NCBI RefSeq assembly: GCF_001894825.1
Contig: NZ_BCWY01000003.1
Span: 124,001-188,000, forward strand
Origin: Rhodococcus jostii NBRC 16295
Lineage (GTDB): Bacteria; Actinomycetota; Actinomycetes; Mycobacteriales; Mycobacteriaceae
DNA length: 64,000 bases
Reading direction: 5' to 3'
Under the pieces are notes generated by a model. The model was not told the origin of the DNA. It searched no databases and worked only from the letters and a program-made list of their open reading frames with translations. Numbering within the stretch: position 1 is the stretch's first letter; each line of letters starts with the position of its first letter. Positions 399 through 25,666 of this stretch are shown in pieces. The position numbers were made by a program, and so were the translations under genes.

Positions 399-415
399 GG
401 TTCGCCTACCGGACC
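399..415. promoter_or_regulatory. 17-bp palindrome, site A (putative IclR operator)
   Basis: GGTTCGCCTACCGGACC matches the shared 17-bp pattern RGTYCRS-N3-SCRGAMC. It lies 76 bp before the ATG of the enoyl-CoA hydratase-like gene. The rest of 153-491 holds no recognisable gene, although one frame is open back to 153. Confidence 0.55.
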
Positions 416-491
416 GCTGGGGGTGTGCCGGGGCGCGCGCAAACTGATACTCGAATTCTCAGTTCCAGTCGACCGACCCCATGGAGTACAG

Positions 492-1283
492 ATGACGCCT
501 TCCTTCCCTCCGCTCGCCGCGTCGGTGCATGCCGCTGTGGCCGACGCCGTGGCGGTCGTGCGTATCGAGCGACCGCCGGCCAACGCTTTCGATCCTGCGC
601 TGATCGCGGAATTGCTCGACACCCTGAAGCCGCTGGCGGCGAACACCGACGTGCGGTGCATCGTGCTGCGCGGAACGGGACGCTTCTTCGTGGCCGGCGC
701 CGACATCCGAGTGATGCGTGAACTGTCGGAGGAGACGCAGCACGCGATGCGGCCCTGGATCGAGGTGCAGCAGGTCCTCGAGACCACTCCGAAACCCGTG
801 CTGGCAGCCCTCAACGGACACGCACTCGGCGGCGGAGCGGAGTTGTCACTGGCCTGTGACGTGCGGGTGATGGCGGCGTCGGCGTCGATCGGGTTCCCGG
901 AAATCGGTCTCGGACTGTTTCCCGGGGCCGGCGGCAGTCAGCGCTTGCCCCGCTTGCTCGGCGCGCATCGCGCGAAGCTCCTCATGATGGAGGGTCGGCG
1001 CCTGTCCGCCGACGAGGCCCTGCAGATCGGCTTGGTGGACGAGGTGGTACCCGACGACGAATTCGACGCGCGGATCGACCGTATCGCCGCCGAATGGGCG
1101 GCGAGACCGACTGCCGCAATCGGCCTCCTCAAGCGGGTGGTCGAAGCGGGGCGGACACTCCCACTCGATCAGGCACTGGACGCGGAGTTTGCAGGTGTCC
1201 TCGACCTCATTCGCACGGCCGACGCCGCCGAGGGTCTCCAGGCCTTCCTCGACAAGCGACCGCCGCGTTTCACTGGTCGCTGA
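492..1283 (+). CDS. Enoyl-CoA hydratase/isomerase family protein
   Basis: A 263-residue crotonase-fold enzyme expected to hydrate or isomerise an enoyl-CoA thioester in the cytoplasm. The oxyanion-hole segments are visible as GRFFVAGADIRVM near residue 60 and GHALGGGAELSLACDVR near 100, followed by GFPEIGLGLFPGAGGSQRLPRL, where the crotonase catalytic Glu normally sits. The frame is open back to 153, but the ATG at 492 follows GGAG at a good distance and removes a prefix unlike the family. It leads an operon with the binding protein 31 bp downstream and has site A upstream. It probably serves side-chain or ring-product oxidation with the CoA-transferase and ligase; the substrate is unknown. 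Confidence 0.88.
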   Translation: MTPSFPPLAASVHAAVADAVAVVRIERPPANAFDPALIAELLDTLKPLAANTDVRCIVLRGTGRFFVAGADIRVMRELSEETQHAMRPWIEVQQVLETTPKPVLAALNGHALGGGAELSLACDVRVMAASASIGFPEIGLGLFPGAGGSQRLPRLLGAHRAKLLMMEGRRLSADEALQIGLVDEVVPDDEFDARIDRIAAEWAARPTAAIGLLKRVVEAGRTLPLDQALDAEFAGVLDLIRTADAAEGLQAFLDKRPPRFTGR

Positions 1284-1314
1284 CCCTGCTCGCCACCTCA
1301 CCCGAAGGATGCTC

Positions 1315-2295
1315 ATGACACACTCGATCGGACGGCGAGCGTTTCTCGCCGTCGCGGCACTGGCGGCCCTCACCGTCGCCTCGACGTCCTGTACCCGGCC
1401 CGCGACCGAAGCAGCGCAGGGGAGCGGGCTGATCCGCATCTCCGTGGGCGTCGACCCGTCGTACGCGCCGATTTTCCTCGCCGATGCCGAGGGCATGTTC
1501 GACGACGCCGGACTGGACGTTCAGGTGATGCAGACCGAAGGCGGAGCGGCCGGCGCGCAGAACGTCGTGGCAGGGACATCGGAATTGTCCGGCAATGCCG
1601 ACTCCACGGCGCTCACTGTCATGGCCGCGAATCCGTCGCTGCGCGCGCTCGGTGTGTTCGAGGATTCGGACCGCTATTTCCAGGTGGTCCTCCGCGAGGG
1701 TGTAGAGCCCAAGGACATCGAGACGATGGGTGTGTTCCCCGGTATCGGGCTCTACTTCACCGACTTGTATCTGCGGAGCCTCGGTCGAGATCCGGCGTCG
1801 GTCAAGCTCGTGAACACCAGTCCACCCGAGCAACCGGCGCTGCTCGCCCGCGGTGACATCGACGGATTCCTGTCGTTCGATCCGTGGGTGGAGCAGGCCG
1901 TGGCGACAGGTGGTCGTGTCGTCGCGACGACCGGTGACTTCGGAGCCAAGTATTCACAGTGGATCCTGGCGTCCAATTCCTGGTTGTCGGCGAACGAGGA
2001 CGTCGCGGCCCGGGTGTTCGACGTGATCGCCGAGGCCGCTGCAATCGCCGATGCCGACCCGGACCGGGCCGCCAAGGCGATCTCCGACTCGATCCAGATG
2101 GATCCGGCCGAGGCCCGTCGGACCGTCTCCCAGATCGACTTCGGGGTGCGCGACTTCACGGACGACGACGTGGCACGCGCGAATCAACTGGTCACCTTCT
2201 TCCGAGGCCAGGGCAAGATCACAGGGGAAGTCGATACCTCGAGCGTTCTGCTTCGTGGGTGGGTCACAGACCACCTGAACCAACCCCCGGCCTGA
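1315..2295 (+). CDS. ABC transporter substrate-binding lipoprotein (NMT1/SsuA/TauA type)
   Basis: A 326-residue extracytoplasmic binding protein. The N-terminus has two Arg, a hydrophobic stretch and a lipobox-like ASTSC with the lipidated Cys near residue 26. The mature part starts IRISVGVDPSYAPIFLADAEGMFDDAGLDVQ, the usual opening of binding proteins for sulfonates, nitrate, thiamine precursors and aromatic acids. The ATG at 1315 is preferred over the one at 1309 because GAAGGA sits 5 nt before it. It has no permease or ATPase beside it. It resembles the binding protein at 12405-13385 throughout (RIxVGxDxSxAPxFxAD, DRGDIDGY/ARGDIDGF), so it may share that importer or act as a second receptor. 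The remnant at 16-152 is a third family member. Confidence 0.87.
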   Translation: MTHSIGRRAFLAVAALAALTVASTSCTRPATEAAQGSGLIRISVGVDPSYAPIFLADAEGMFDDAGLDVQVMQTEGGAAGAQNVVAGTSELSGNADSTALTVMAANPSLRALGVFEDSDRYFQVVLREGVEPKDIETMGVFPGIGLYFTDLYLRSLGRDPASVKLVNTSPPEQPALLARGDIDGFLSFDPWVEQAVATGGRVVATTGDFGAKYSQWILASNSWLSANEDVAARVFDVIAEAAAIADADPDRAAKAISDSIQMDPAEARRTVSQIDFGVRDFTDDDVARANQLVTFFRGQGKITGEVDTSSVLLRGWVTDHLNQPPA

Positions 2296-2319
2296 CGCTC
2301 GGCGACGACGCGTCCGTCC

Positions 2320-2336
2320 GGTTCGGTCAGCGGAAC
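2320..2336. promoter_or_regulatory. 17-bp palindrome, site B (putative IclR operator)
   Basis: GGTTCGGTCAGCGGAAC is 91 bp before the CoA-transferase GTG. It differs from the ideal GGTCCGGTCAGCGGACC by one symmetric change in each arm (T and A), so the palindrome is kept. Confidence 0.6.
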
Positions 2337-2343
2337 AGATCGA

Positions 2344-2385
2344 TTCACTGGTACGGGACCGCGACGTAGGTTCGGTTCCAGTGAA
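2344..2385. repeat. Inverted repeat TTCACTGG / CCAGTGAA
   Basis: Perfect 8-bp arms at 2344-2351 and 2378-2385, centres 34 bp apart (about three helical turns), lie between site B and the CoA-transferase start. The right arm sits inside GTTCCAGTGAAC, itself a small palindrome. This may be a second regulator site or a paired operator. Confidence 0.4.
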
Positions 2386-2427
2386 CGGGCGGACGCCCGC
2401 TGGGAACAATGAAACGGAGTCCTTCTG

Positions 2428-4770
2428 GTGGAAAGCGCAATTCGCGTGGTGGAGTTGTCCAGCCCGCTGAGTCGATTCGCCGGCCGCATCCTGGTCGGAC
2501 TGGGATACGAGGTCGTTCTGGTCGAACCGCCGGAGGGTGATCCGACGCGCTGGGAACTGGACGGCCACGCATTTACGCACTGGCACGCCGGGAAGAAATC
2601 CGTCGCCATCGACGTCGAGACCACCGTGGGCCGTGCGGAATTGGCGCGTCTGGTGGCCGGGGCGGACGTGTATCTCGATGGCAGCGCCGTCGGCGACGAG
2701 CCGATCGCGCGGGCACCGGGACCGGTCGTTCACGTACGAGTCACACCCTTCGGCGTCGACGGTCCGCGACGCCAGTGGTGCGCCACCGATCTGACGCTCG
2801 CGGCCCTCGGCGGAATGCTCGCCCAGGTAGGTGAATCCGACGGGCCCCCGCTGGCTCTACCTCAGGGCCAATCCGAACAGCTGGCAGGGGTGAACGCCGC
2901 GATCGCGGTGTTACTCGGTCTCCGGGCGCGGCGTCGCGGCCCGGTCCCGCTGATCGACGTCTCCGCGCAGGAATGCGTGGCGGCAGGCCTCGAGGCCGGC
3001 GCCCTGGCCTATCTCCACGAGGATCGCGTCCCGCACCGACCCGGCCGGGTGCACCCGTTGGTACCGCACGGCCTGTTCCGGGCCGCCGACGGCTATGTCG
3101 GTGGCGGGCTCGGCGGAAGTCCCCGGATGTGGGACGCTCTGGTCTCCTGGCTGGTCGAGGAGGGCGCGCAGGAGGATCTGGACGACCCGAGATGGGCTGA
3201 CCCCGTCGAGCGGAAGGCGCACCAGGACCACATCTTCACCGTGCTGCAGCGTTTCCTCGACAAGTGGCCGAAGGAGGATTTCGCGCGGGCGGCGCAGCAA
3301 CGCAAGCTGCCGTGGTCCGCGGTCATCCGACCGGACGAACTTCTGTCCAACCCCCAACTTCTGGACCGCGACTTCTTCGTCGACGTCGACGAGGTCGGGA
3401 CCACCGTACGAGATCTGGGCTTCTCCTTCCCTTTCCCGGAAGGAGGAAGGACCCGGGCCCTGCCGGTTCCGCCGATCGGTGCGCACCAGTTCCTCCTCGA
3501 CGAGGTGCAATCCGAAGACCTCGAATCGAATCTGACCTCATCCGGACAGGACATGCTGCCCCTGTCGGGCGTCCGGGTCCTGGACCTCACCTGGGTTCTC
3601 GCCGGTCCCTACTGCACTCAGATCTTGGCGGACCACGGCGCCGACGTCATCAAGGTCGAGTCGTCGGGCCGACCCGACCCCACACGGTTCGCGCCGTTCA
3701 TGCACTTGTCCCGCGGACCACACGACGACCCGAACACCAGCGGGTACTTCAACGACGTCAACAGGAACAAGCGCAGCATCACTGTGGACACCCGTTCCGA
3801 GGCAGGACTGGCCGTGCTCGCCGACCTCGTGGCGCAGTCCGACGTGGTGGTCGAGAACTTCAGTTCCTCGGTGATGGAGAAGATGGGCTTCGGGTACGAA
3901 CGGCTTCGCGCCCTATGTCCGGACATCGTGTACGTCTCGATGTCGGGGACCGGTCACACCGGACCGCGACGCGACTGGGTCACCTATGCGGACATCGTCT
4001 CCGCCGCTACCGGACTGACCGCTCTCACCGGGTGGACCGCCGACGATGTCGTCGGGGTGATCTACGGTCATGGTGACATCGTCGCAGGATTACATGGCGC
4101 CGCAGCGGTTCTCGCCGCCCTCGAGCACAGAGACCGCACCGGCCGTGGTCAGCACATCGATCTCTCCCAGCTGGAGGCGATGGCGTCACACATGGGCACC
4201 AGTGTGGTGCAGGTGACGGGTGCCGGACAGCTTCCTGTTCCGCTCGGCAATGCCCATCCCGATATGTCACCGCACGGCGTCTTCCGCTGCCTCGGACCCG
4301 ACCGCTGGTGCGCGGTCACCGTTCGTGACGACGCGGACTGGACCCGATTGTGCACGGTGATCGGCCGCCCGGAATGGGCGGCGGACGAGCGTTTCCGCAC
4401 GCCCGATTCGCGACGGGCACACGAGGCCGACATCGCGGCGGCGATCACGGCCTGGACGTCGCCGCGGCCGGCGGATCTCGTCACCGAGCAACTCCAGCAG
4501 GCGGGCGTCCCCGCCGGGACCGTACAGAACGGGCGGGACCTCGTCGAAGCCGATCCTCACCTGCGTGCCCGCGGGTACTACGTGCCCGCCGTCCATCCCC
4601 GTGCGGGAACCGTTCTCCACCAGGGCGCCCCGATCCGGGTCGGGAAAGCCGTCACGATCCGGCAACCGGCGCCGGTACTGGGCGCGGACACCGATGTCGT
4701 ACTCCGCGAGGTCACCGGTTACTCCGCGGAGACCGTTGCGCGGTTGCGATCCCACTCGGTCCTCTCCTGA
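2428..4770 (+). CDS. Tandem (fused) class III CoA-transferase, CaiB/BaiF family
   Basis: A 780-residue protein made of two class III CoA-transferase domains, about residues 1-365 and 375-780, whereas family members usually have one domain of about 400. These enzymes move CoA between carboxylic acids through an aspartyl-CoA intermediate. The second domain has LTWVLAGPYCTQILADHGADVIKVE and YGHGDIVAGL, with the likely catalytic Asp at 550. The equivalent segment of the first domain reads GQSEQLAG, with Glu150 in place of Asp, so that half may be structural. GTG start after ACGGAGT. It heads a run with the MDR and ligase genes at 53 and 40 bp spacing and probably makes the CoA ester of a pathway acid. 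Confidence 0.88.
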   Translation: MESAIRVVELSSPLSRFAGRILVGLGYEVVLVEPPEGDPTRWELDGHAFTHWHAGKKSVAIDVETTVGRAELARLVAGADVYLDGSAVGDEPIARAPGPVVHVRVTPFGVDGPRRQWCATDLTLAALGGMLAQVGESDGPPLALPQGQSEQLAGVNAAIAVLLGLRARRRGPVPLIDVSAQECVAAGLEAGALAYLHEDRVPHRPGRVHPLVPHGLFRAADGYVGGGLGGSPRMWDALVSWLVEEGAQEDLDDPRWADPVERKAHQDHIFTVLQRFLDKWPKEDFARAAQQRKLPWSAVIRPDELLSNPQLLDRDFFVDVDEVGTTVRDLGFSFPFPEGGRTRALPVPPIGAHQFLLDEVQSEDLESNLTSSGQDMLPLSGVRVLDLTWVLAGPYCTQILADHGADVIKVESSGRPDPTRFAPFMHLSRGPHDDPNTSGYFNDVNRNKRSITVDTRSEAGLAVLADLVAQSDVVVENFSSSVMEKMGFGYERLRALCPDIVYVSMSGTGHTGPRRDWVTYADIVSAATGLTALTGWTADDVVGVIYGHGDIVAGLHGAAAVLAALEHRDRTGRGQHIDLSQLEAMASHMGTSVVQVTGAGQLPVPLGNAHPDMSPHGVFRCLGPDRWCAVTVRDDADWTRLCTVIGRPEWAADERFRTPDSRRAHEADIAAAITAWTSPRPADLVTEQLQQAGVPAGTVQNGRDLVEADPHLRARGYYVPAVHPRAGTVLHQGAPIRVGKAVTIRQPAPVLGADTDVVLREVTGYSAETVARLRSHSVLS

Positions 4771-4823
4771 GCCGGTCACTTCGATCAGGCTTTCCACCCG
4801 ACAGCACACCCGAAGGACAGAAC

Positions 4824-5768
4824 ATGCGCGCAGCCCGCTTTCACACATTCGGACACGACCCGATCATCGACGATGTCGAGGTGCCGAGCCGGAAATCCGG
4901 ACAGACCCTCGTCCGGATCGATGCGGCGGCGCTGGGGCACCTCGACCTCACCGTCGGCAGCGGGAACTTCGACATCAAGCCGGCCCTGCCGCACGTCGGA
5001 GGAACCGACGGGGCCGGCACCGTGATCGAATCCGATACCTTCGATGCCGGTACCCGGGTGCTGGTCCGGGGTGGCGGAGTCGGCCTCTTCAAGCCCGGCT
5101 GCTGGGCCGAGTACCTCGTGGCCGCCGACAAGGTCTTCACTCCGTTCGATTCCGCCCTCGAACCGGCCATCGCGGCCACCTTCTTCCTCCCGAGCACAAC
5201 CGGTTTCGTCGCGGTCCACGACATCGCCCGCATCGCCGCCGGTGAGCGGGTGGTCGTGTCCGGAGCAGCCGGCGCGGTCGGATCCATGGCTGCACAGTTC
5301 GCGCTCCTCGCCGGGGCCGACGTGATCGGTGTGGTGCCGCGAGCCGACCAGGTACCGCTGGTACCCAACGGAGTCCGAACCGTCGTCGGCCGTGGACGTG
5401 AACTGGCCGACACGCTGGGGCCCGATCCAGTGGCGGACGTGCTCGTCGACACCCTCGGCGGCGACTCGCTGCCGTACCTTCTCGAACGCGTCGTACCCGG
5501 CGGGCGGGCCGCACTGGTCGGCTACACGCTGGGGACCGAACTCACGATCGATTTGCCGAACTGGTTGCTCGAGGATGTACAGATGTTGCCGGTCAACATG
5601 ATTCGCAAGGGTAAACGACAGGCGGAACTCGCACCCGACCTCATCCGACGCCTCGTCGAGGGCGAGATCGGCATGGCGGTTCAGGAGTTTCCGCTCGACG
5701 ACATCGCGTTTGCACTGCAGATGATGCGTGAAGGGAAGGTCGCCGGCCGCGCGGTCGTCGTACCGTGA
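4824..5768 (+). CDS. MDR-family NAD(P)-dependent oxidoreductase (quinone oxidoreductase-like)
   Basis: A 314-residue medium-chain reductase. The N-terminal GroES-like part reads DEVEVPSRK-type residues through LVRIDAAALGHLDLTVGSG, and the Rossmann part has VVVSGAAGAVGSMAAQFALLAGADVIGV near residue 150. The zinc ligands typical of alcohol dehydrogenases are not evident, which favours the quinone oxidoreductase/enoyl reductase branch. Start chosen at the ATG after GAAGGAC; the frame is open much further upstream but overlaps the CoA-transferase. Likely reduces a double bond or ketone of a pathway intermediate; substrate unknown. Confidence 0.85.
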   Translation: MRAARFHTFGHDPIIDDVEVPSRKSGQTLVRIDAAALGHLDLTVGSGNFDIKPALPHVGGTDGAGTVIESDTFDAGTRVLVRGGGVGLFKPGCWAEYLVAADKVFTPFDSALEPAIAATFFLPSTTGFVAVHDIARIAAGERVVVSGAAGAVGSMAAQFALLAGADVIGVVPRADQVPLVPNGVRTVVGRGRELADTLGPDPVADVLVDTLGGDSLPYLLERVVPGGRAALVGYTLGTELTIDLPNWLLEDVQMLPVNMIRKGKRQAELAPDLIRRLVEGEIGMAVQEFPLDDIAFALQMMREGKVAGRAVVVP

Positions 5769-7378: not shown

Positions 7379-8272
7379 TTACCGGCCGCAACCGTTGAAG
7401 GAGCACATCGCGGGCGTGCATGCCTCGGCGCCGACGATGTCGGTCGCCGAGTATGCGCAGCGCATCGCGTGAAGTGCTCGGGAGATCCCGATGCCCGCGG
7501 TTCGCAGGGCACCGGTGACCCGGGCGACGTTGAGCCGCGCCGTCGGACCTGTTACCGAGAGGGCACCGGCGAGGGTTCGGGGTCCGCTGAACACCGGCAC
7601 CGCAACACTCATGTAGCCGATGCGGGTCTCTTCGACTTCGACTGCGAGTTGCTCGTTGCGCATGCGGTCGAGTTGCTGGCGCAGGACGGCGACCGACATC
7701 GTGGTGCGGGCGGTGAGGGCGGTGAATCCCTGCTCGATGACTTCGTCGAACACCGACTGCGGCGAGAACGCCAGGATCATCTTCCCGGTCGCGGTGCAGT
7801 ACAGCGGCAACCGGCCCGCCACCCGCGACTGCTGTTGCAATCCGCGGTGACCGACGATCTTCTCGATGTAGAGCACGTCGATGCCGTCCCGAACCGCGAA
7901 GTGCACCGTCTCCTGCGTTGCAAGCAGCAGGTCCTCCATGTACGGCAGGGCGGCGTCACGCAGGATGCGCTGCCGGGGGACGAGCTGTCCGAGCTCGAAC
8001 AGCCGCAGGCCCAAGCGGTACTTCGTGCCCGCCCGCTCGAGGAGTCCCCATTCGACGAGTTCGCCGGCCAGCCGGTGCACGGACGCCTTCGCGACACCAC
8101 TTCGACGTGCTAGTTCGGTGAGCGAGAGGTCGCTGTGCTCACTCCCGAACGCGTCGAGAATGAGCCGCGCCTTGCCGAGAACGGACGACATGTCCTGTGC
8201 CGCAACGCGGTGTGCCGACGGAATCGGTACGACCGGGCCGAGGCCGACCGAATGCTGCGCCTCTGTAGTCAC
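7379..8272 (-). CDS. IclR-family transcriptional regulator (1)
   Basis: A 297-residue regulator. The winged helix-turn-helix covers about residues 33-85 (LSLTELARRSGVAKASVHRLAGELVEWGLLER); the IclR effector domain follows, with PYMEDLLLATQETVHFAVRDG and ATGKMILAF. Start is a GTG placed 6 nt after AGGAGG; an internal ATG (residue 28) would give the usual family length, but the ribosome site favours the longer form. A 17-bp palindrome (site C) lies 82 bp upstream. It is closely similar to the second IclR protein (24887-25630), for example RLGLRLFELGQLVP, so the two may bind the same or related sites. Likely controls the surrounding catabolic operons. Confidence 0.9.
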   Translation of the reverse strand: MTTEAQHSVGLGPVVPIPSAHRVAAQDMSSVLGKARLILDAFGSEHSDLSLTELARRSGVAKASVHRLAGELVEWGLLERAGTKYRLGLRLFELGQLVPRQRILRDAALPYMEDLLLATQETVHFAVRDGIDVLYIEKIVGHRGLQQQSRVAGRLPLYCTATGKMILAFSPQSVFDEVIEQGFTALTARTTMSVAVLRQQLDRMRNEQLAVEVEETRIGYMSVAVPVFSGPRTLAGALSVTGPTARLNVARVTGALRTAGIGISRALHAMRCAYSATDIVGAEACTPAMCSFNGCGR

Positions 8273-8354
8273 TGCTGCCTCCTGGCGATTGGCGGGGCAT
8301 TCGTCCCGATCACAGCCACGCTAGGGCTGGACAGTGGCGAGACGCACGCCACAG

Positions 8355-8371
8355 GGTCCGGTCACCGGACC
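8355..8371. promoter_or_regulatory. 17-bp palindrome, site C (putative IclR operator, possibly also a terminator stem)
   Basis: GGTCCGGTCACCGGACC is a perfect palindrome with a 1-bp centre, and the symmetry extends one more base on each side. It contains the hydrolase stop codon (8362-8364), so in RNA it could also be a hairpin ending the hydrolase transcript. It is the likely autoregulatory site for the IclR gene downstream. Confidence 0.6.
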
Positions 8372-9523: not shown

Positions 9524-10534
9524 TCAGCTCTCCTTTTCGGTGGAATGACCCGGGAAGATGTCTGCATCCGGATCGAGGACGGCCGCGGCGTTGTTGACCG
9601 CGGTCGCGGCCTCACCGAATCCGACGGCAATGAGCCGGACCTTCCCGGGATAATCGGTGATGTCGCCGGCCGCGTACACGCGCGGCACGGTGGTCTCCAT
9701 TCGGGTATTGACGACGATGTGGCGCGAATCGATCTCGAGTCCCCACTCGGTCATCGGCCCGAGGTCGGCGGTGAACCCGAGAGCGGCGATGACGGATTGC
9801 GCCGGCAACGTCGTAGTGGTCTCGTCGAGTTTGTGCGCGACGTCCACCTCCGCGATCCAGCCGTTGCCACGAACTGCTGCAATGTCCGCATTGACCAGCA
9901 TGCGCACAGTGCTCTCGCGCACCTTCGTCACCGTCGCCGCGTGTGCACGGAACTTGTCGCGACGATGCACCAGGGTCACCGACGATGCGATCGGCTCGAG
10001 ATGGACCGCCCAGTCGAAGGCGCTGTCGCCGCCGCCCACGATTACCACGTCCTTGCCGGTGTGCGCGGACAGGTCGGGTACGAAGTAGCTGAGACCGCGG
10101 TCGACGAAATCGAGCCCCTTCACCAGAGGGCGTGGCGTGAATGTCCCGATCCCACCGGTGATCACGACCGCACCGGCGGTGACGGTGCGTCCTTTGCTCG
10201 TCCCGATCACGACACGTCCGTCCCGGGCATGATCCAGTGACCGGGCCTGCTCGCCGAGCAGATACGCCGGATCGAACGGCGCGGCCTGCGCGAGCAATCC
10301 ATTCACGAGATCTCGCCCTTTGACGGACGGGAAGCCCGCGATGTCGAGGATCGCCTTCTCCGGGTACATCGCGCTCACCTGGCCCCCGGGCTCGGACAGA
10401 GCGTCGAGAACGGCGACCCGGAGTCCGCGGAAGCCGGCGTAGTACGCAGCGTAGAGACCGGCCGGGCCGGCACCGATAATGAGAATGTCGACGTCGAGGT
10501 CCGTGCCGGTCGACGCGTTGAGCGAAGCGTTCAT
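9524..10534 (-). CDS. Ferredoxin-NADP+ reductase, thioredoxin-reductase-like type
   Basis: A flavoprotein of about 336 residues that moves electrons from NADPH to ferredoxin. The FAD Rossmann motif is IIGAGPAGLYAAYYAGFRG near the N-terminus and the NADPH motif is VIVGGGDSAFDW mid-protein. The CxxC of true thioredoxin reductases is absent, as in YumC-type reductases. The C-terminal YAAGDITDYPGKVRLIAVGFGEAATAVNNAA is the second FAD contact. An upstream in-frame ATG at 10552 is also possible; neither has a clear ribosome site. Palindrome site D is 44 bp upstream. First gene of the reductase-ferredoxin-hydrolase operon. Confidence 0.9.
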   Translation of the reverse strand: MNASLNASTGTDLDVDILIIGAGPAGLYAAYYAGFRGLRVAVLDALSEPGGQVSAMYPEKAILDIAGFPSVKGRDLVNGLLAQAAPFDPAYLLGEQARSLDHARDGRVVIGTSKGRTVTAGAVVITGGIGTFTPRPLVKGLDFVDRGLSYFVPDLSAHTGKDVVIVGGGDSAFDWAVHLEPIASSVTLVHRRDKFRAHAATVTKVRESTVRMLVNADIAAVRGNGWIAEVDVAHKLDETTTTLPAQSVIAALGFTADLGPMTEWGLEIDSRHIVVNTRMETTVPRVYAAGDITDYPGKVRLIAVGFGEAATAVNNAAAVLDPDADIFPGHSTEKES

Positions 10535-10577
10535 GCCGGCAACGCTAATCATGGTGCCGCGCCGGATAAATGAAGCC

Positions 10578-10594
10578 GGTCCGGTCAGCAGACT
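10578..10594. promoter_or_regulatory. 17-bp palindrome, site D (putative IclR operator)
   Basis: GGTCCGGTCAGCAGACT matches the ideal sequence at 15 of 17 positions, with both changes in the right arm. It is just upstream of the ferredoxin reductase gene. Confidence 0.5.
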
Positions 10595-13385: not shown

Positions 13386-13472
13386 GTTTGTACACCTCCT
13401 ATTGTGATCTGGACCTCATTGGCGGGCTGTGGTGAAAATCTAATGGCACCTCGGTGGGGCGTGAATCAACCG

Positions 13473-13489
13473 GGTCCACCGTGCGGACC
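13473..13489. promoter_or_regulatory. 17-bp palindrome, site E (putative IclR operator)
   Basis: GGTCCACCGTGCGGACC has near-perfect arms around a 3-bp centre, 88 bp before the importer binding-protein gene. Confidence 0.6.
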
Positions 13490-13718: not shown

Positions 13719-13735
13719 AGTCCGCTCTGCGGACC
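13719..13735. promoter_or_regulatory. 17-bp palindrome, site F (putative IclR operator)
   Basis: AGTCCGCTCTGCGGACC has GTCCGC/GCGGAC arms and lies about 350 bp before the AbgT gene and 334 bp before the importer gene. It may serve either promoter or a DNA loop with site E. Confidence 0.5.
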
Positions 13736-14087
13736 ACGAAGGTTCGCATTCGCGCGTCCCCAGTGCTAACTTTCGTCGCCCCGGGTGATCCACACCACAG
13801 AGAGGCGACGGCCATGTATGGAGTTCTGAACGTGCCTACGCACAGGGCTCGCGTCCGCATCTGAACCGATGTACTAGTTGTGTCCAGTCCCGGAGTCCGC
13901 AGTCGCCATACGGGATGCAGCGACGTCGTGACCCGAGGACAAGCGGTCGCGGAACCTGGCCGCCTCTCGCCCTCCACCCAGCATCGAGCTTTTCCCGCCC
14001 GCCCAGCGAAACTCACGCCACGTTCCAAATATTTCCTTGTGTGGAAACACGCGGGTTCAGCCGAACACAGACATGAAAGTCTTGCAT

Positions 14088-15617
14088 ATGACGAGCGTCA
14101 TCAGGCAGTACACGAAGAAGTTGCCCGGGAACGTACTGAACCGAGTGGAGAAGGTGGGGAACCGACTCCCGCACCCCTTCATACTCTTCCTGTACATCGC
14201 GGTTGCGATAGCCTTGTTCTCGTTGATTGCGTCCCTCGCCGGCGCAACGGTCATCGATCCCAAATCACAGGAACAGGTTGATATCCAGAACCTGCTATCC
14301 GCGGATGGACTCGAGTTCGCGCTGACAACCATGCTGGACAATTTCTTGTCCTTCCCGCCCCTCGGCCTGGTCATCGTCATGCTCCTCGGAGTTGGACTGG
14401 CCAATCAAGTCGGCCTCCTGGAGATCGCCTTCAAAGCCATTGTCGTGCGGGCGTCTCCCAGGATGCTGACGTTCGTGGTGATCTTCGTGGGCATCATGAG
14501 CAATATCGCTTCTGAATCGGCAGCCATCGTCATTCCCCCGCTGGCAGCGATGTTGTTCCTGGCGGTGGGGAGGCATCCGATCGCGGGCTTGGCAGCGGGC
14601 TTCGGCTCGGTAGGTGCAGGATTTTCCGCCAACTTCATTATCGCCGGAACCGACGTACTACTGTCTGGAATCACCACGTCCGCTGCGGGAATCGTCGACA
14701 ACTCCGTGGTCGTCACTCCGGTGTCGAACTGGTACTTCATGTCCGCATCGACACTCATCCTGACCATCGTTGGTGTCCTCATCACCGAGAAGGTGGTCGA
14801 GCCTCGACTCGGTCCGTACACAGGCACTGGATCCGACCGCGACAATTCCGAATTCTTGATCACCGCCGAACAGCGTCGCGGGTTGCGTAACGCGGGAATC
14901 GTCGCCCTTCTGTATGCCGCAAGTGTCACAGCACTCGTGGCACCACCCAACGCGGCCCTCCGCGGCGAAGGCGGTTCCATCATCACTTCGCCATTCATGG
15001 ACTCCCTCGTTCCGATCATCTTTCTGTTCTTCGTGTCCGTTGGCATCACCTATGGAATCGCAGTGGGAACGATCACGAGCAGTAGTGACGTTCCGAAGCT
15101 GATGACCGAATCGGCGAAAGACCTAGCTGGAATTCTGGTTCTGGTCTTCGCGGTCGCGCAGGCAATCGCCTATTTCCAGTGGACCAACCTCGGCCTGTGG
15201 GTGGCCGTGCAGGGTTCCGAAGTTCTCAAGGCCCTCGACGTCGACGGCGTCGTGGCTCTCATCATGCTGAGCCTTGTGACGATCGTGCTCAGTCTCGTCA
15301 TCTCGAGTGGTTCAGCACTGTGGGCAGTCATGGCTCCCGTATTCGTGCCCATGATGATGCTGCACGACGTCAATCCTGCATACGCCCAGCTGGCATATCG
15401 CATCGCAGATTCGTCGACCAACATGCTGGTGCCCCTCAGCCCGATATTGGCGGTAGCGCTCGGATACATCCAGAAGTACGACAAGAAGGCCGGCGTCGGT
15501 ACGGTCTTCGCTCTGATGATTCCCTACGCTGCAGCGTTCTACGTGATCTGGATGCTCCAGTTCGTCGTCTGGACAGCTCTCGGACTACCCATCGGACCGG
15601 GGGAACATCTCAATTGA
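14088..15617 (+). CDS. abgT: AbgT-family transporter (p-aminobenzoyl-glutamate type)
   Basis: A 509-residue integral membrane protein with about ten to twelve hydrophobic segments. Family blocks include NRLPHPFILFLYIAVAIALFS, IMSNIASESAAIVIPPLAAMLF, GFSANFIIAGTDVLLSGITT and VISSGSALWAVMAPVFVPMMMLHDV near the C-terminus. AbgT proteins import p-aminobenzoyl-glutamate, a folate breakdown product, and some export sulfonamides. Start at 14088 is supported by GAAAG; an ATG at 14073 is an alternative. The amidohydrolase 31 bp downstream makes uptake plus hydrolysis likely. Confidence 0.85.
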   Translation: MTSVIRQYTKKLPGNVLNRVEKVGNRLPHPFILFLYIAVAIALFSLIASLAGATVIDPKSQEQVDIQNLLSADGLEFALTTMLDNFLSFPPLGLVIVMLLGVGLANQVGLLEIAFKAIVVRASPRMLTFVVIFVGIMSNIASESAAIVIPPLAAMLFLAVGRHPIAGLAAGFGSVGAGFSANFIIAGTDVLLSGITTSAAGIVDNSVVVTPVSNWYFMSASTLILTIVGVLITEKVVEPRLGPYTGTGSDRDNSEFLITAEQRRGLRNAGIVALLYAASVTALVAPPNAALRGEGGSIITSPFMDSLVPIIFLFFVSVGITYGIAVGTITSSSDVPKLMTESAKDLAGILVLVFAVAQAIAYFQWTNLGLWVAVQGSEVLKALDVDGVVALIMLSLVTIVLSLVISSGSALWAVMAPVFVPMMMLHDVNPAYAQLAYRIADSSTNMLVPLSPILAVALGYIQKYDKKAGVGTVFALMIPYAAAFYVIWMLQFVVWTALGLPIGPGEHLN

Positions 15618-15647
15618 CGCACACTTCGAACACCCGAAAGGAAATCT

Positions 15648-16877
15648 GTGAGCACCTTCGACAACAGTGAAATCGACGAAGCAGTCGACACCGAAGACGA
15701 GGCCGTCCATCGCAAGTTTCTCGATGAGATCGCCGATGACCTACTCGACATCAGCCACGAGATTCATGCCAATCCAGAAATCCGGTTTCAGGAGACCGCC
15801 GCAAGTGCCCTCCTCGCCTCGAAACTCAGGGAAGCGGGCTTCGCAACACAACTCGGTGTCGGTGGCCTTCCGACCGCCTTTCTCGCCCAGTACGGTTCGG
15901 CCTCAGACGGTCCCACGATCGCGTTCTTCCTCGAGTACGACGCATTGGAGGAGATCGGTCACGCGTGCGGGCACAACGTGATTGCGACGATCGGGCTGGG
16001 CGCGGCCTTGACGGTGCAGGCATGGATGCGAAATCACGGGCGTGCAGTCGGCAGACTGGTAGTCGTCGGCAGTCCCGGAGAAGAAGGCGGCGGGGGTAAG
16101 CAGTACCTCATCAAAGCAGGGTGCCTGGACGGAATCGATGTGGCACTCATGATGCATCCGTCAGGAGAGAACCTTTCCTGTATGACCACGCTGGGCCGCG
16201 TAGCGCTCGATTTCGAGTTCACCGGGAAGGCGGCACACGCTGCAGTCACGCCGCATCACGGAGTCAATGCGCTCGATGCCGCCGTTCTCACCTTGAACGC
16301 GATTGCCCTTCTGCGCCAGCAACTCCCAAGCGACGTGCGAGTTCACGCAATCATGCTCGAAGGTGGGGAAGCGCCGAACGTAATCCCGGAAAGGGCCTTG
16401 CTCCGGGCGTACATTCGTGCAGCCGATACCCGAGCCTTGGTTGATGATTTCCAGCCGAGGGTCGAGAACTGCGCCCGCGGTGCAGCCATCGCTACGGGCG
16501 CGCAGGTCTCCATTACCCAGCAATCGCCGACGTATGCAGCGCTACAGCCGAATGCGGTACTCGGCGATCTTGTCGAACGGAACTTCGCGCGCGTCGGTAG
16601 GCGAACGGAACCCCCACGTACCGACGTCTTTCCGGGTTCGACGGACATGGGTAATGTCAGTCAGATCATCCCGTCGATTCATCCCAACATCGAGTTCGTG
16701 CCGGGGCTGGGGATGCACACCCGTGAAGCCGCGGAGTATGCGGGAGCGCCGGAAGGCGACAAAGCCGTGCTGGACGGTTCACTCATCCTTGCGATGACCG
16801 CGAGTCAGCTGTTCTCGAACCACGGACTCGTGGGCCAGGTGAAGGCGGCCTTCAGCGAAGGGGTACGCGTCGACTGA
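15648..16877 (+). CDS. M20-family amidohydrolase (AbgB-like)
   Basis: A 409-residue metallo-hydrolase of the M20D type. The metal-site motifs look intact: LLDISHEIHANPEIRFQE, EEIGHACGHN near residue 105, GSPGEEGGGGKQYL near 145, and MMHPSG near 165. AbgB with AbgA splits p-aminobenzoyl-glutamate; related enzymes act on N-acyl amino acids. GTG start after AAAGGAAA. Cotranscribed with the AbgT gene. No AbgA-like partner is present, so the substrate may be a different aryl-amide. Confidence 0.85.
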   Translation: MSTFDNSEIDEAVDTEDEAVHRKFLDEIADDLLDISHEIHANPEIRFQETAASALLASKLREAGFATQLGVGGLPTAFLAQYGSASDGPTIAFFLEYDALEEIGHACGHNVIATIGLGAALTVQAWMRNHGRAVGRLVVVGSPGEEGGGGKQYLIKAGCLDGIDVALMMHPSGENLSCMTTLGRVALDFEFTGKAAHAAVTPHHGVNALDAAVLTLNAIALLRQQLPSDVRVHAIMLEGGEAPNVIPERALLRAYIRAADTRALVDDFQPRVENCARGAAIATGAQVSITQQSPTYAALQPNAVLGDLVERNFARVGRRTEPPRTDVFPGSTDMGNVSQIIPSIHPNIEFVPGLGMHTREAAEYAGAPEGDKAVLDGSLILAMTASQLFSNHGLVGQVKAAFSEGVRVD

Positions 16878-16899
16878 CCCGGAGACGAAAGACCGACCC

Positions 16900-20414: not shown

Positions 20415-20425
20415 CGAATCCTCCT

Positions 20426-21742
20426 CTAGTCGGCGTCGGTCGCGGCGGGTGCGCTCGCCCCGTTGGCCGACTCGGTGGGTGTAGCCGGCCGTGCAGTCTT
20501 CCGTGCCACGGAGACACGGCGCTCACGAGCCGGTCGATCGGGTGTTGCCGGCGCGAAAGAGACTGCAGCCGCGATCTTCTCTCCATACTCTTCTTCGGCG
20601 AGATTGCGCCAGGTAGTGAGCGAGACGTCGGGTCGGTACAGCTTCTCCGGCGGAGCGTCGGTGACACGGACCATCCACTCGTCCTGGCCCGAGAACTGGC
20701 CGTGGAACAGCCACCGCACGGCACCGAGGTATTTGGCGTAGAAGCCGAGCCTCTTCACACCGGTCTCGAAGTTGGCCATGAGTCCCACGTACTGGTGGTG
20801 ATCCTCGTCGACCGGAACATAGAACTCGTAGTGAATGAAGTTGGGGTAGGCGATCCGCAGCACACCGGGCATCGACAACGATGCGAAGCCCGGGAAGTTC
20901 TGGGCCGCGATCACCGGATTCACCTTCAGGCCGGCGCCGACGTTGCCGATCTGCGAGATCTGGTTCTCGTCGGGCTTCTTCTTCCACCATCGCTTGTTCG
21001 TCCACTTCCCGACGCCGGGAAAGTCGGCCTCCCAGTAGACTTCCTCTTGGACCCGGTAGATCCACCGGCCCTCCGGGACGATGCTGGTGATGTTCCACGT
21101 CGGCATCGGCTTGAACAACCGCCACAACGCGGTGCGGTGCAGGTACTTCGCATGCCCCTCGTCGAATCCGTTCTCGCACGCGAATCGCCAATTGCCGCCT
21201 CGGGGTTGGATCCGGCCCCCGACGACGCCTTCGTTCTCGACGAGCTCACGGGGCAACTGCTCGTCGATCGACGGCACGGGCTCGTTGGCGATCGGGATGT
21301 ACACCCAGACCAGGCCCAGGCGTTCTTCGGCCGAGTAGGTCTGCACGGACAGTTTGCCGCAGATCTTCGAGTCCGGCCCGTCGGTGATGACGGCGGCCAG
21401 TTTGCCGTCGGTGAGTCGGAACGTCCAGCCGTGGTAGGGGCAGCTGACCGTTCCCGGGAACTGTTGATCACCCTCCGACAGCGGCACGCCACGATGGGGG
21501 CAGCGGTCGTGCAGTGCGTAGACCTTGCCCGCGTCGCGAATGAGCGCGAGCTTCTCGCCGCAGATGGTGTGGCTCGTCGGCTTACCTGTTACATGGTTCG
21601 CCCACGTCACCGGATACCAGTATCCGCGGTAACCACTGCCTGCCTCGTTGTATCGAGGCCAGGCGGTCCAGTCCTGCCGACCGGCCGCGCGCGGCCTCTC
21701 CGGGAGAACCTGCGTGTTCTCCGGCGCCTCGACACCAGTCAT
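20426..21742 (-). CDS. Rieske non-heme iron oxygenase, alpha subunit (CarAa-like)
   Basis: A 438-residue terminal oxygenase. The [2Fe-2S] Rieske cluster is bound by Cys81-x-His83 (CPHRG) and Cys101-x2-His104 (CPYHGW). The mononuclear iron site has ENGFDEGHAKYLH with His197 and His202 and the bridging Asp194. Sequence style resembles carbazole 1,9a-dioxygenase and 2-oxoquinoline-type oxygenases, homotrimers without a beta subunit, and no beta-subunit gene is present. The C-terminal 40 residues are Ala/Pro/Arg-rich and probably disordered. Electrons likely come from the ferredoxin pair at 9201-10534. Start after GAGAGGA; palindrome site G is 75 bp upstream. Confidence 0.9.
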   Translation of the reverse strand: MTGVEAPENTQVLPERPRAAGRQDWTAWPRYNEAGSGYRGYWYPVTWANHVTGKPTSHTICGEKLALIRDAGKVYALHDRCPHRGVPLSEGDQQFPGTVSCPYHGWTFRLTDGKLAAVITDGPDSKICGKLSVQTYSAEERLGLVWVYIPIANEPVPSIDEQLPRELVENEGVVGGRIQPRGGNWRFACENGFDEGHAKYLHRTALWRLFKPMPTWNITSIVPEGRWIYRVQEEVYWEADFPGVGKWTNKRWWKKKPDENQISQIGNVGAGLKVNPVIAAQNFPGFASLSMPGVLRIAYPNFIHYEFYVPVDEDHHQYVGLMANFETGVKRLGFYAKYLGAVRWLFHGQFSGQDEWMVRVTDAPPEKLYRPDVSLTTWRNLAEEEYGEKIAAAVSFAPATPDRPARERRVSVARKTARPATPTESANGASAPAATDAD

Positions 21743-21816
21743 GTGAAGTCCTCTCGAGATGAGATCAAGTGATGCAGGAGATCTTCCGATCGACTGCCCT
21801 GCACCTCAACAATTCC

Positions 21817-21833
21817 GGTTCGCTCAGCAGACC
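21817..21833. promoter_or_regulatory. 17-bp palindrome, site G (putative IclR operator)
   Basis: GGTTCGCTCAGCAGACC lies in the 95-bp gap between the MaoC-like gene and the Rieske gene and suggests a separate promoter for the meta-cleavage block. Confidence 0.55.
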
Positions 21834-21837
21834 GGGT

Positions 21838-22248
21838 TCATCCTCGCGATGTCGTGGTGATCACCGCGCTGCCCTCCGCGCACAATGCCCCGTCGTCGGC
21901 GTGTTCGACGAGGGCGACCTCGATCCGGTCACCCTCGATACGAGTGACGGTTCCGCTGACCGTGAGGACACACCCCACGGGTGCGGGCGCTCGGTTGCGC
22001 CACGTCACGGACGTCACCGCACCGGCCTCCCCGGCCAGGCGGGCGGCGGCCCGGAAGAACAGCGTCCCCTGCAGCTGAGCCATCACCACCCGGTCATCGA
22101 GGCCCTCTGCACGTGCATGGTCGGTATCGTAGTGAATGCGGTGGGCGTTGTGCGTGGTAGCGCCGAAACGGAGCACACGGACCGGATCGCACTGCAGTGC
22201 AACATGTTCGATTGTGTCTCCGACCTTCCATAGGCTGGGGAGCGTCAC
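21838..22248 (-). CDS. MaoC-like hydratase subunit
   Basis: A 136-residue single hot-dog protein with the MaoC hydratase-2 signature region FGATTHNAHRIHYDTDHARAEGLDDRVVMAQLQ, including the catalytic-type His in NAHRIHYD. Such proteins hydrate trans-2-enoyl-CoA. It overlaps the upstream hot-dog gene as ATGA; the two probably form one heteromeric hydratase, as in actinobacterial HTD/ChsH-type pairs. Confidence 0.85.
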   Translation of the reverse strand: MTLPSLWKVGDTIEHVALQCDPVRVLRFGATTHNAHRIHYDTDHARAEGLDDRVVMAQLQGTLFFRAAARLAGEAGAVTSVTWRNRAPAPVGCVLTVSGTVTRIEGDRIEVALVEHADDGALCAEGSAVITTTSRG

Positions 22249-22730
22249 CGGACGATGAACCGTTCCGTGACAACTGCCAGCGTGAGCGATCCCATGACGC
22301 GATAGGTCTTGGACACGGTGATCACAAGGAACTCATGGCCGTCACGGCCCTTCCGGTCGACACCGCACACGGTGCGTGTGACCTCGATGTGCTCGCCGAG
22401 CGGAGGTGTCGAACAGAACTCGATGGTCTGTCCTCCCGCCAGCAGGCGCACGTCCAGCCCCGCCGTGCCGGGCACCTCATCGACGAACATGCCGTCGGGG
22501 CGATACTCGTCGCTGTCGGCGCCGTCCGGTCCTCGCAGCATGCTGGGCAAGTACATCGGGTGGACCCGGAAGTCGTCTCGTCCGGAGTCGAGAAATCGAG
22601 GATCGCGCTCCGCCGACGCCCTCGCGAATGCCACGGACTCCGCTGCTCTCACCGCCCCGAGGCGGCGGTGCGTGGTGGTACCGATCATCCGGCGCGCGCG
22701 TTCGAAGGCTGAATCCAGGCCAATGTGCAT
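22245..22730 (-). CDS. FAS1-like/MaoC N-terminal hot-dog dehydratase subunit
   Basis: A 161-residue hot-dog protein resembling the N-terminal half of MaoC dehydratases (VHPMYLPSMLR, EHIEVTRTVCGVDRKGRDGHEFLVITVSKTYR). It lacks the catalytic His motif found in its partner 21838-22248, the usual division in heterodimeric enoyl-CoA hydratases. First gene of the minus-strand pair, facing the C-C hydrolase gene across a 101-bp divergent promoter with site H. Confidence 0.8.
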   Translation of the reverse strand: MHIGLDSAFERARRMIGTTTHRRLGAVRAAESVAFARASAERDPRFLDSGRDDFRVHPMYLPSMLRGPDGADSDEYRPDGMFVDEVPGTAGLDVRLLAGGQTIEFCSTPPLGEHIEVTRTVCGVDRKGRDGHEFLVITVSKTYRVMGSLTLAVVTERFIVR

Positions 22731-22772
22731 GGGCGAACGCTAGATCCGGTATGGCGGCGTCACTACGGTCCC

Positions 22773-22789
22773 GGACCGTCCAGCGGACC
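22773..22789. promoter_or_regulatory. 17-bp palindrome, site H (putative IclR operator)
   Basis: GGACCGTCCAGCGGACC lies in the 101-bp divergent promoter between the hot-dog pair and the hydrolase-MFS operon. The right arm is perfect; the left arm has one or two changes. Confidence 0.5.
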
Positions 22790-22831
22790 GCGATGCTTCC
22801 GTCACCGCCGCCGATCGGGTCAGGTGTGGTC

Positions 22832-23683
22832 ATGGTACATCCACCGAACAGTCTGTACGCCACCGCCGCAGGTGTGAAATTCCACTACCACGACATGGGC
22901 GAGGGGTCTCCAACGATCTTCCTGCACGGCGGCGGCCCCGGCTGCACGGCGTGGTCCGATTTCGGACCCGTCGCACCACTCTTCGCCGACGATCGTCGAG
23001 CCGTGCTCGTCGACATCCTCCAGTACGGCAAGTCCGACAAGTGCACCATCAGCGGACCGATGTGGGACTTCCACGCAGCCAAGATGGTCGCCCTCCTCGA
23101 CGAACTCGGCATCGCCCGAGCTGATTTCGTCTGCAATTCCTGGGGCGGGACGATCGCACTGAATCTCGCGGCAAAATACCCGGACCGGGTGCGTGCACTG
23201 GTGATCACCGGAAGCATGCCGGTCTTCTACGGACCACTTGCCCCGTTGCCGGAGGACGGCCGGCGCGGCCGCAACGCCCGCGACGTGTACTACGGCGGCG
23301 ACGGTCCCACCCGGGAGAAGATGCGGCAACTGATCACTCGCCTCGAATGGTTCGACGGAGACCAGCTGCCCGACGCGACGCTCGAGATGCGGTACCGCCA
23401 AAGTCTCGATCCCGACGAGATGGCGCTGGCCGCGGCGTCGGACAATCCGCGTGGGGACTGGCAGGATCTGACGACTGAACTCGGGACGATCGAGGCGCCG
23501 GTTCTGTTCGCGTGGGGGATGCACGACGCCTTCCTGACGCCGGACTATCCGCTGATGCTGGCCCGAATGATCAAGCACGGCCACCTCTACGTGATGGACC
23601 GCGCGTCCCACCACCTGCAGGAGGAACGCCCGCACGACTACTACTCGCTCGTGACGGGGTTCCTCGAACAGCGACACCCGTGA
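22832..23683 (+). CDS. Alpha/beta hydrolase, meta-cleavage-product hydrolase-like (2)
   Basis: A 283-residue enzyme with strong MhpC/BphD features: IFLHGGGPGCTAWSDFGPVAPLFADDRRAVLVD, FVCNSWGGTIALNLAAKYPDRV (nucleophile Ser in NSWGG), FAWGMHDAFLTPDY (acid Asp) and ASHHLQEERP (catalytic His). It splits ring-fission products to 2-hydroxydienoates. Its stop overlaps the GTG of the MFS gene. The ATG at 22832 is chosen; a GTG two codons upstream is possible. With the hydrolase at 17095 the cluster has two enzymes for the same type of step. Confidence 0.88.
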   Translation: MVHPPNSLYATAAGVKFHYHDMGEGSPTIFLHGGGPGCTAWSDFGPVAPLFADDRRAVLVDILQYGKSDKCTISGPMWDFHAAKMVALLDELGIARADFVCNSWGGTIALNLAAKYPDRVRALVITGSMPVFYGPLAPLPEDGRRGRNARDVYYGGDGPTREKMRQLITRLEWFDGDQLPDATLEMRYRQSLDPDEMALAAASDNPRGDWQDLTTELGTIEAPVLFAWGMHDAFLTPDYPLMLARMIKHGHLYVMDRASHHLQEERPHDYYSLVTGFLEQRHP

Positions 23684-24924
23684 CCACGAGCAGCACCTGC
23701 TCCGAACTACACCCCGCACCACCTGCCGGAATCAACCGCATCAAACTCGTCGTCGTCCTCGGTGTGCTCACCGCACTGGGCCCGTTCACCGTGGACATGT
23801 ACCTACCGGCACTACCGGCGATCGCCGTCGACTTCGAGACCTCGGAGTCGACGGTGCAACTGACACTGACCGGAACGCTGATCGGTCTCGCTCTCGGACA
23901 GCTGGTGATCGGCCCGGTCTCCGACCGCTACGGTCGGCGTCGCCCACTCCTGCTGGGCACGGCAGTCCATGTCGTCGCGTCCGTGGCGTGCTATTTCGCG
24001 TCGACCATGACGGTGCTGGGTGCGTTCCGGACAGTCCAGGGGGTGGGCGCCGCGGCGACTGCGGTCATTGCGACCGCCATCGTCCGGGACCTCTTCTCGG
24101 GCCGCGCCGCTGCAGTCATGTTCTCCCATCTGATGCTGGTCATGGGCGTGGCCCCGATCCTGGCGCCGAGCATCGGCGGAATCCTCATGACCACCATGTC
24201 GTGGCACGGTGTGTTCCTCGTGCTGGCCGTGCTCGCGGCTCTGCTGATGCTGCTCGGTGCCGTCGCGCTGCCCGAAACGCTTCCGCCCTCGCACCGGAGC
24301 CGACGCGGACTTGCCCCTGCACTCCGGACCTACACCCGGCTCGTCCGCGACGGCCGCTTCATGACCCTCGTCCTCGTGTGTGGACTGGGCCGAGCGGTCC
24401 TGTGGGCGTACATCGCCGGATCCTCGTTCGTCATGCAGAGGGAGTTCGAACTGGATCCGACCGTGTATGGAGTGGCGTTCGCGGCCGGCGGCGTGGTCCT
24501 GATCGGGGCGGCCCAGGTCAACGTGCGGCTGCTGGACCGCTGGTCTCCCGCCCGGATCTGTATCGTCGCGCTCGCCGTCAGCGTCGCCGTCGGAGTTGCG
24601 TTCGTCGCGGTGGCTCTCCACGGCACGACCGGGTTCGCGGGATTCGCGGTGCCGGTGCTGGCCTTGCTGTGTGCGACCGGATTCGTCATGCCGAACGCGC
24701 CGGCTCTCGCGCTGACCCGGCACGGCGACGCGGCCGGCACGGCGGCGGCGATCGTCGGGTTCGCCCAGTTCGGTACGGCCGCCGTGGTGGCGCCGGTCGT
24801 CGGAGTCCTGGGTAACACCGCGCTCGCCGTGGCCGTCACGATGACCAGCTGTGCGGTCCTGGCCGTTCTCGCGCTCGGGTACGGTGTCAGGCCGATCGCG
24901 CGACGCCACGGAGTGCGCGACTGA
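23680..24924 (+). CDS. MFS drug-resistance-type transporter (Bcr/CflA subfamily)
   Basis: A 414-residue protein with 12 predicted membrane segments. It has the Bcr/CflA opening LGPFTVDMYLPALPAIAVDF and motif A as GPVSDRYGRRRPLL. Members export small molecules by proton antiport. Coupled by a GTGA overlap to the C-C hydrolase, so it may expel a toxic pathway intermediate or move the aromatic substrate. Its last 38 bp overlap the convergent IclR gene. Confidence 0.88.
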   Translation: MTTSSTCSELHPAPPAGINRIKLVVVLGVLTALGPFTVDMYLPALPAIAVDFETSESTVQLTLTGTLIGLALGQLVIGPVSDRYGRRRPLLLGTAVHVVASVACYFASTMTVLGAFRTVQGVGAAATAVIATAIVRDLFSGRAAAVMFSHLMLVMGVAPILAPSIGGILMTTMSWHGVFLVLAVLAALLMLLGAVALPETLPPSHRSRRGLAPALRTYTRLVRDGRFMTLVLVCGLGRAVLWAYIAGSSFVMQREFELDPTVYGVAFAAGGVVLIGAAQVNVRLLDRWSPARICIVALAVSVAVGVAFVAVALHGTTGFAGFAVPVLALLCATGFVMPNAPALALTRHGDAAGTAAAIVGFAQFGTAAVVAPVVGVLGNTALAVAVTMTSCAVLAVLALGYGVRPIARRHGVRD

Positions 24925-25630
24925 TGTTCGATCCCGCGGCGGTCAACGGCTTCGCCGTCCGTGCGACGTTCATCCGCGACGTCGTGGTGGTCACGCTTAC
25001 CGCACCGACCACCATCGAGCCGGCGAAGACGGGTACCGCGATACTGGTCATACCGAGTCCGACCTCCTCGACCTCCAACGCGAAGCCCTCTGTACGGACC
25101 CGATCGAGTTGCCGGCGAAGGCGAAGAGCCGAGGCAACGGTCCGAGTCGTCAGGGGGGCGAACCCACGAGCGACCACCTCGTCGAACACCCTCGATGGCG
25201 AGTACGCGAGGATTGCTTTACCGGTCGCCGTGGCCTCGATCGGTAGTCGGCCGGCGATCCGAGATGGGAGCCGGGCGCTGCGGTGACCGGAGATCTTTTC
25301 CACGAACATGACGTCGAGACCGTCCCGAATCGCCAGGTGCACCGTCTCGAGGGTGAGAGTGTGCAGGTCCTGCATGAACGGAACCGCGGCATCCCGGATG
25401 ATGCGTTGCGTCGGAACCAGCTGGCCGAGTTCGAAGAGGCGCAGTCCCAGCCGGTAGTCGGTTCCGACCCGCTCCAGGAGCCCGATCTGGACCATCTCCC
25501 CGGCGAGTCGGTACACGGTCGCCTTCGCAACCCCGCTCCGACGTGAGAGCTCGGTCAACGACAGCGCTCCGGACTCTGCATCGAAGCTGTCGAGTAGCAG
25601 TCGCACTTTTCCCAGCAACGACGCGTTCAT
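24887..25630 (-). CDS. IclR-family transcriptional regulator (2)
   Basis: A 247-residue regulator with the winged helix at about residues 5-60 (LSLTELSRRSGVAKATVYRLAGEMVQIGLLERVGTDYRLG split over the helix and wing) and an effector domain including LETVHLAIRDGLDVMFVEKISGH. It is much closer to the first IclR protein than to the third. The ATG at 25630 is chosen because GGAGG sits 6 nt before it; the ATG two codons earlier abuts GGAGG. Site I, 20 bp upstream, fits autorepression. Confidence 0.9.
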   Translation of the reverse strand: MNASLLGKVRLLLDSFDAESGALSLTELSRRSGVAKATVYRLAGEMVQIGLLERVGTDYRLGLRLFELGQLVPTQRIIRDAAVPFMQDLHTLTLETVHLAIRDGLDVMFVEKISGHRSARLPSRIAGRLPIEATATGKAILAYSPSRVFDEVVARGFAPLTTRTVASALRLRRQLDRVRTEGFALEVEEVGLGMTSIAVPVFAGSMVVGAVSVTTTTSRMNVARTAKPLTAAGSNISRALRGVARSA

Positions 25631-25649
25631 GTACATCCTCCGACAGGCG

Positions 25650-25666
25650 GGTCCACTCAGCGGACC
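25650..25666. promoter_or_regulatory. 17-bp palindrome, site I (putative IclR operator)
   Basis: GGTCCACTCAGCGGACC has near-perfect arms in the 60-bp gap before the second IclR gene, close enough to block its own promoter. Confidence 0.6.

Follow-up and report, generated by a model that had tools for sequence, protein, structure and literature searches.

The regulator MhpR controls a pathway of the MhpB/MhpC type, and part of the gene cluster described here resembles that pathway. Table 1 of the survey by Suvorova and Gelfand (2021, PMC8222616) lists MhpR together with PcaU, PobR, PcaR and CatR as IclR-type regulators of aromatic catabolism. In the parts of the survey covered here, the operator of IclR group 1 is given as a 17-bp inverted repeat with 7-bp arms around 3 bp (GKTYCRY-W3/4-RYGRAMC). 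The window, a stretch of 64,000 nucleotides from Rhodococcus jostii NBRC 16295, carries nine palindromes whose consensus, GGTCCGCT(C/G)AGCGGACC, fits this operator except at the central base, although single sites deviate at more positions. The central base is C or G here, whereas it is A or T in group 1 as given in those parts. The inverted-repeat layout, a regulator gene inside the cluster and catabolic targets are features that the same parts of PMC8222616 give for group 1; the -10 box at a fixed distance seen here is not discussed in them. The locus shares with the PcaU, PobR, PcaR, MhpR and CatR systems the protein family, the type of motif and the local control of an aromatic pathway, but differs from them in having two paralogues and nine operators within ~25 kb. 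Switches of this kind are well known. However, the present set of sites appears to be undescribed, and no description of this regulon was found in the open-licence papers searched. The skatole cluster of Rhodococcus was rejected as the known pathway because PMC13101512, in the parts covered, gives a LuxR-type regulator and names no Rieske or IclR protein.

The nine 17-mers reported in the earlier note were all found at their positions, with 5 to 8 of 8 arm positions palindromic in each. With a symmetric matrix built on them, the nine sites score 15.7-23.1 bits, and 11.6 bits is exceeded nowhere else in the window. A second matrix, derived from 110 distinct sites in other species with R. opacus excluded, ranks exactly the nine sites as its top nine in the window (15.2-24.0 bits, the next match having 9.8 bits); this test is not fully independent, because the window's own matrix had served to find the 110 sites, at a threshold of at least 13 bits. 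Permutation of the arm columns (200 draws) gave a mean of 0.47 and a maximum of 6 matches of at least 14 bits, compared with 9 real ones. When the threshold was lowered to 10 bits, one of the permuted matrices gave 11 matches vs. 9. Across the 9.73-Mb genome, GGTYCRSNNNSYRGACC is found at 22 distinct places (30 strand matches), of which 5 (8 matches) fall within the 25.3 kb of the earlier note, a span that makes up 0.26% of the genome; outside these 25.3 kb its 22 strand matches equal the 20 of a reversed-pattern control. GGTYCRSTCASCRGACC without mismatch occurs at three places genome-wide, all inside the cluster. With up to two mismatches it gives 139 strand matches genome-wide vs. 42 for the reversed control, and since such looser versions are commoner than the control predicts, a loose match is no sign of membership. 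The strict form GGTYYRSTSASYRRACC is found at 5 places in its own genome, 3 of them in the cluster, and at 6 places in 5 genomes among 20 of the same genus outside the eight cluster genomes searched. The claim that several sites change symmetrically in both arms did not hold up: such a change was seen in one of 72 pair cells (site 8355, position 7), and among the 110 orthologous sites symmetric arm covariation was slightly above shuffles only at position 8 of 8, with positions 5 and 7 below. Judged by their sequences, the nine palindromes are nevertheless real, functional-looking and conserved in related bacteria. No Rfam match was found in the window.

Of 113 distinct orthologous promoters, 78 carry a TANNNT box that begins 30 or 31 nt beyond the operator; elsewhere the rate is 0.12% per position. 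The box is present in the iclR-1 (24/25), sbp2 (23/23), fdr (19/19), caiB2 (9/11) and hot-dog (3/3) classes, and absent at this distance from the orthologous ech (0/20), Rieske (0/8), sbp1 (0/2) and acdh (0/2) promoters. Within the window, it occurs in 6 of 10 promoter orientations, including that of abgT, which lies outside the training set. The box has the consensus TAG(C/G)(G/T)T; the -35 is weak, its T-rich start alone being kept. An operator upstream of a weak -35 with a good -10 at a fixed distance is an activator-type layout, and it was found at the promoters that carry the box, but not at those of ech and Rieske. With the TANNNT box taken as -12, the operator centre would lie near -51, an activator-like position. 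In fdr the box is followed by 7 nt and then ATG or GTG in the four species looked at, a spacing that supports the -51 geometry; the fdr mRNA is probably leaderless, starting 52 nt from the operator centre.

On the plus strand, the operator of the enoyl-CoA hydratase gene (ech, 399..415) has TACTCG at 448-453, 32 nt downstream, a possible -10 that is not TANNNT, and that of the fused CoA-transferase gene (caiB2, 2320..2336) has TAGGTT at 2367-2372, 30 nt downstream. The iclR-1 operator (8355..8371, minus strand) is a perfect palindrome with TAGCGT at 8318-8323, 31 nt downstream, and overlaps the last 10 bp of an alpha/beta-hydrolase gene that ends at 8362. Also on the minus strand, the operator of the ferredoxin reductase gene (fdr, 10578..10594) has TAGCGT at 10542-10547, 30 nt downstream, with a likely ATG at 10534, and the operator of the ABC importer operon (sbp2, 13473..13489) has TAGATT at 13437-13442, 30 nt downstream, and a second TANNNT 9 nt upstream. 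Of 23 sbp2 promoters, 11 have such a second box at this distance of 9 nt, an arrangement that would suit repression. The operator of the block of Rieske, M20, LigB and hydrolase genes (21817..21833, minus) has no TANNNT at 30-31 nt. Between the divergent genes, the operator at 22773..22789 has TAGCGT at 22737-22742, 30 nt off on the minus (hot-dog) side, and no TANNNT at 30-31 nt on the hydrolase side. The iclR-2 operator (25650..25666, minus) lies 13 nt before the start codon, and with TATGCT 9 nt upstream (25676-25681) it covers the presumed transcription start. The operator is 11 nt downstream of a -10-like box in three of four iclR-2 orthologues; from these sequences, it is placed just past a -10, in a repressor-like position. 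A weak related palindrome of 9.8 bits (26512..26528, plus strand) before the 2-hydroxypentadienoate hydratase gene is a possible IclR-3 site. The identical palindrome, GTTCGGCTCAGTGGAAC, stands between iclR-3 and the lower-pathway genes both in the window and in another locus (L050, position 19559).

The site at 13719..13735 (plus strand) had been described as lying mid-way in a 702-bp intergenic region. Orphan status was rejected for it: the site is promoter-like, with TAACTT at 13767-13772, 31 nt past it and directed towards an AbgT-type transporter gene that is paired with an M20 amidohydrolase gene, and the leader would be ~290 nt. This leader contains a short open reading frame, MYGVLNVPTHRARVRI (13814-13864), with a GAGAGG-like ribosome site, possibly encoding a leader peptide. 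The R. opacus ATCC 51881 cluster (L048, L071) lacks the transporter and amidohydrolase pair (14073-16877), whereas in L061 and L065 the pair lies within the importer operon. To judge from these placements, the pair is a movable module, with two different ways of becoming part of the regulon.

Comparison with related genomes identified IclR-1 orthologues of 79-98% identity at 23 named loci of Rhodococcus, Prescottella, Nocardia and Rhodococcoides, with gene order largely preserved. Sites of at least 12 bits precede the orthologous iclR-1 (23/23), fdr (21/21), sbp2 (22/22) and ech (17/17) genes, these loci not being phylogenetically independent since they include three N. carnea strains and several Prescottella. 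The caiB2 site is present at 10 of 19 loci and missing in 9 Nocardia loci. Wider stretches, taken from eight other genomes and from locus L070, show a site at the Rieske gene in all 9 non-duplicate regions; in the gap between the hydrolase and hot-dog genes, one is present in 6 of 8 and lacking in 2. A site precedes iclR-2 in 5 of the 9 other genomes examined and is missing in three of Prescottella/R. hoagii and in N. araoensis. Genes that have moved keep their sites: a single site separates caiB2 from the hydratase-aldehyde dehydrogenase-aldolase genes in L067/L085, and one stands ahead of the aldehyde dehydrogenase gene in L068 and L069. In some species, caiB2, ech and iclR-1 have a second site nearby. 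Outside the close IclR-1 group the motif is largely lacking: of 21 loci with distant IclR-1 homologues (41-49% identity, L027-L047, ~3.7 kb each), 18 show no site that reaches 14.5 bits, and one or two are present in each of L034, L035 and L042. In L042, two strong palindromes (2261 and 2897) adjoin an IclR gene 43% identical to IclR-1.

Sites as common inside genes as at promoters would have spoken against a regulon, and this was not the case when 24 chosen loci outside the cluster were compared with it. All nine sites of the cluster are at promoters and none is inside a gene apart from the 10-bp overlap at 8355, whereas 22 of the 25 matches at the 24 chosen loci are inside genes and 3 are intergenic. 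At the 23 orthologous loci, 98 of 103 matches of at least 15 bits are found no more than 450 bp upstream of a placed gene, and one falls inside such a gene; placed coding sequence covers 321,114 of the 446,595 bases, genes outside the window cluster having been placed by a home-made codon score and tblastn. Intergenic matches elsewhere at L010 (21.2 bits), L002 (15.8 bits) and L120 (15.1 bits) have TANNNT at 30-31 nt on neither side and are not claimed as regulon members. The strong L010 match (2001-2017; C22:15673 in the same genome) is between divergent genes.

The window encodes three IclR proteins rather than the two of the earlier note. All three have both family domains above the Pfam cut-offs (HTH_IclR 22 bits, IclR_C 24 bits): IclR-1 (7379..8272, minus strand; 53.0 and 126.2 bits), the proposed main regulator; IclR-2 (24887..25636, minus; 43.5 and 119.6 bits), a paralogue 62% identical to IclR-1; and IclR-3 (25691..26458, minus; 40.3 and 145.8 bits), 41% identical. 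The recognition helices of IclR-1 (SGVAKASVHRLAGE) and IclR-2 (SGVAKATVYRLAGE) are near-identical, making it plausible that the two share targets. The helix of IclR-3 (TSIPKGTLHRILTD) differs, and IclR-3 probably has a separate specificity. Among the 23 genomes, IclR-2 is present in 11, one has a partial match without the HTH part, and 11 show none, several of these being drafts of unstated completeness. IclR-1 is the likelier reader of the sites because these 11 genomes keep the sites, and on this distribution IclR-1 alone seems enough to keep them. IclR-1 scored 132.5 bits against the PcaR/PcaU/PobR subfamily model TIGR02431, below the curated cut-off of 284.75. When plasmids were searched with the M20b and IclR-1 proteins, the best identities were 35.7% and <60%, respectively, and no named relative was found.

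The recurrence of the sites before orthologous genes at 23 loci and the fit of their layout to the group-1 consensus support the earlier proposal of one regulon under an IclR-type protein. The nine palindromes are probably the operators of one local regulon, bound by IclR-1 as a dimer and activating most promoters. The regulon would govern the import of an aromatic compound, possibly an N-heterocyclic one, and its breakdown by meta-cleavage. Since the operator lies just upstream of a weak -35, we infer that inducer-bound IclR-1 probably recruits RNA polymerase at most promoters. Binding at the iclR-2 operator would instead repress iclR-2, as this operator covers the presumed start. The recognition helix of IclR-2 is almost that of IclR-1, and IclR-2 is probably able to use these sites as well. 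Several observations speak against this reading: the ech and Rieske promoters lack the spaced box, the iclR-2 operator is missing in 4 of 9 genomes, 2 of 8 regions have no operator between the hydrolase and hot-dog genes, the CoA-transferase site is missing at 9 of 19 loci, and 11 of 23 sbp2 promoters have the upstream box. A two-regulator switch may be suggested tentatively, in which IclR-1, acting from -51, would activate its own gene as well as seven or eight promoters for catabolism and transport, and the same operator over the iclR-2 start would shut off a paralogue of the same DNA specificity.

Repression by IclR-1 at all sites of the same regulon, exerted from -51 through looping, tetramers or blocking of the polymerase, seems rather unlikely. 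The position of the iclR-2 operator and the TANNNT just upstream of 11 of 23 sbp2 operators would suit it, as would the neighbouring second sites at caiB2, ech and iclR-1, IclR proteins being able both to form tetramers on DNA and to occupy tandem sites according to the covered parts of PMC8222616; however, the conserved box and weak -35 of five promoter classes have the look of activator-dependent promoters. The near-identical helix and the operator before iclR-2 in the window and in 5 of 9 other genomes could also mean that IclR-2, alone or in competition with IclR-1, is the real reader, which is quite improbable given that no IclR-2 appears in 11 of the 23 genomes that have IclR-1 and the sites, though several are drafts. 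Binding by an IclR protein is what we infer, and the looser motif exceeds its reversed control (139 vs. 42), so that a regulator of another family encoded elsewhere might own the palindrome. This is very unlikely, because the palindrome in its strict form has the layout of IclR group 1 and iclR-1 travels with the cluster, always with a site of its own (23/23 loci). Single weak matches do occur inside genes, but a chance likeness of GC-rich sequence or a dispersed repeat is already refuted by the positions conserved at 23 loci, the gap to the next window match of the 9-bit class and the fixed TANNNT spacing.

The genes under the putative IclR-1 operators resemble those of the quinoline (coumarin route) and 3-phenylpropionate meta-cleavage pathways in the Rieske oxygenase, which is like carbazole dioxygenase and 2-oxoquinoline 8-monooxygenase, in the extradiol enzyme, which is like 2,3-dihydroxyphenylpropionate dioxygenase, and in the BphD/MhpC-like hydrolase. 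In contrast to these routes, the cluster has in addition a CoA ligase, whose nearest solved relative is anthranilate-CoA ligase, a fused CoA-transferase (2428-4770), in which a single gene joins both subunits of a benzylsuccinate-type CoA-transferase, and an M20 protein like 5-nitroanthranilate aminohydrolase. The importer, a ferredoxin with its reductase and a lower meta pathway complete the cluster. A 2-quinolinone-like substrate is a doubtful guess from these likenesses, and the substrate could be found through what induces these promoters. The nine operators provide a ready set for one IclR protein, in which one spacing rule would predict activated vs. repressed promoters. The regulon would thereby tie ~20 genes for aromatic import and ring cleavage into one unit common to soil and host-associated actinobacteria.
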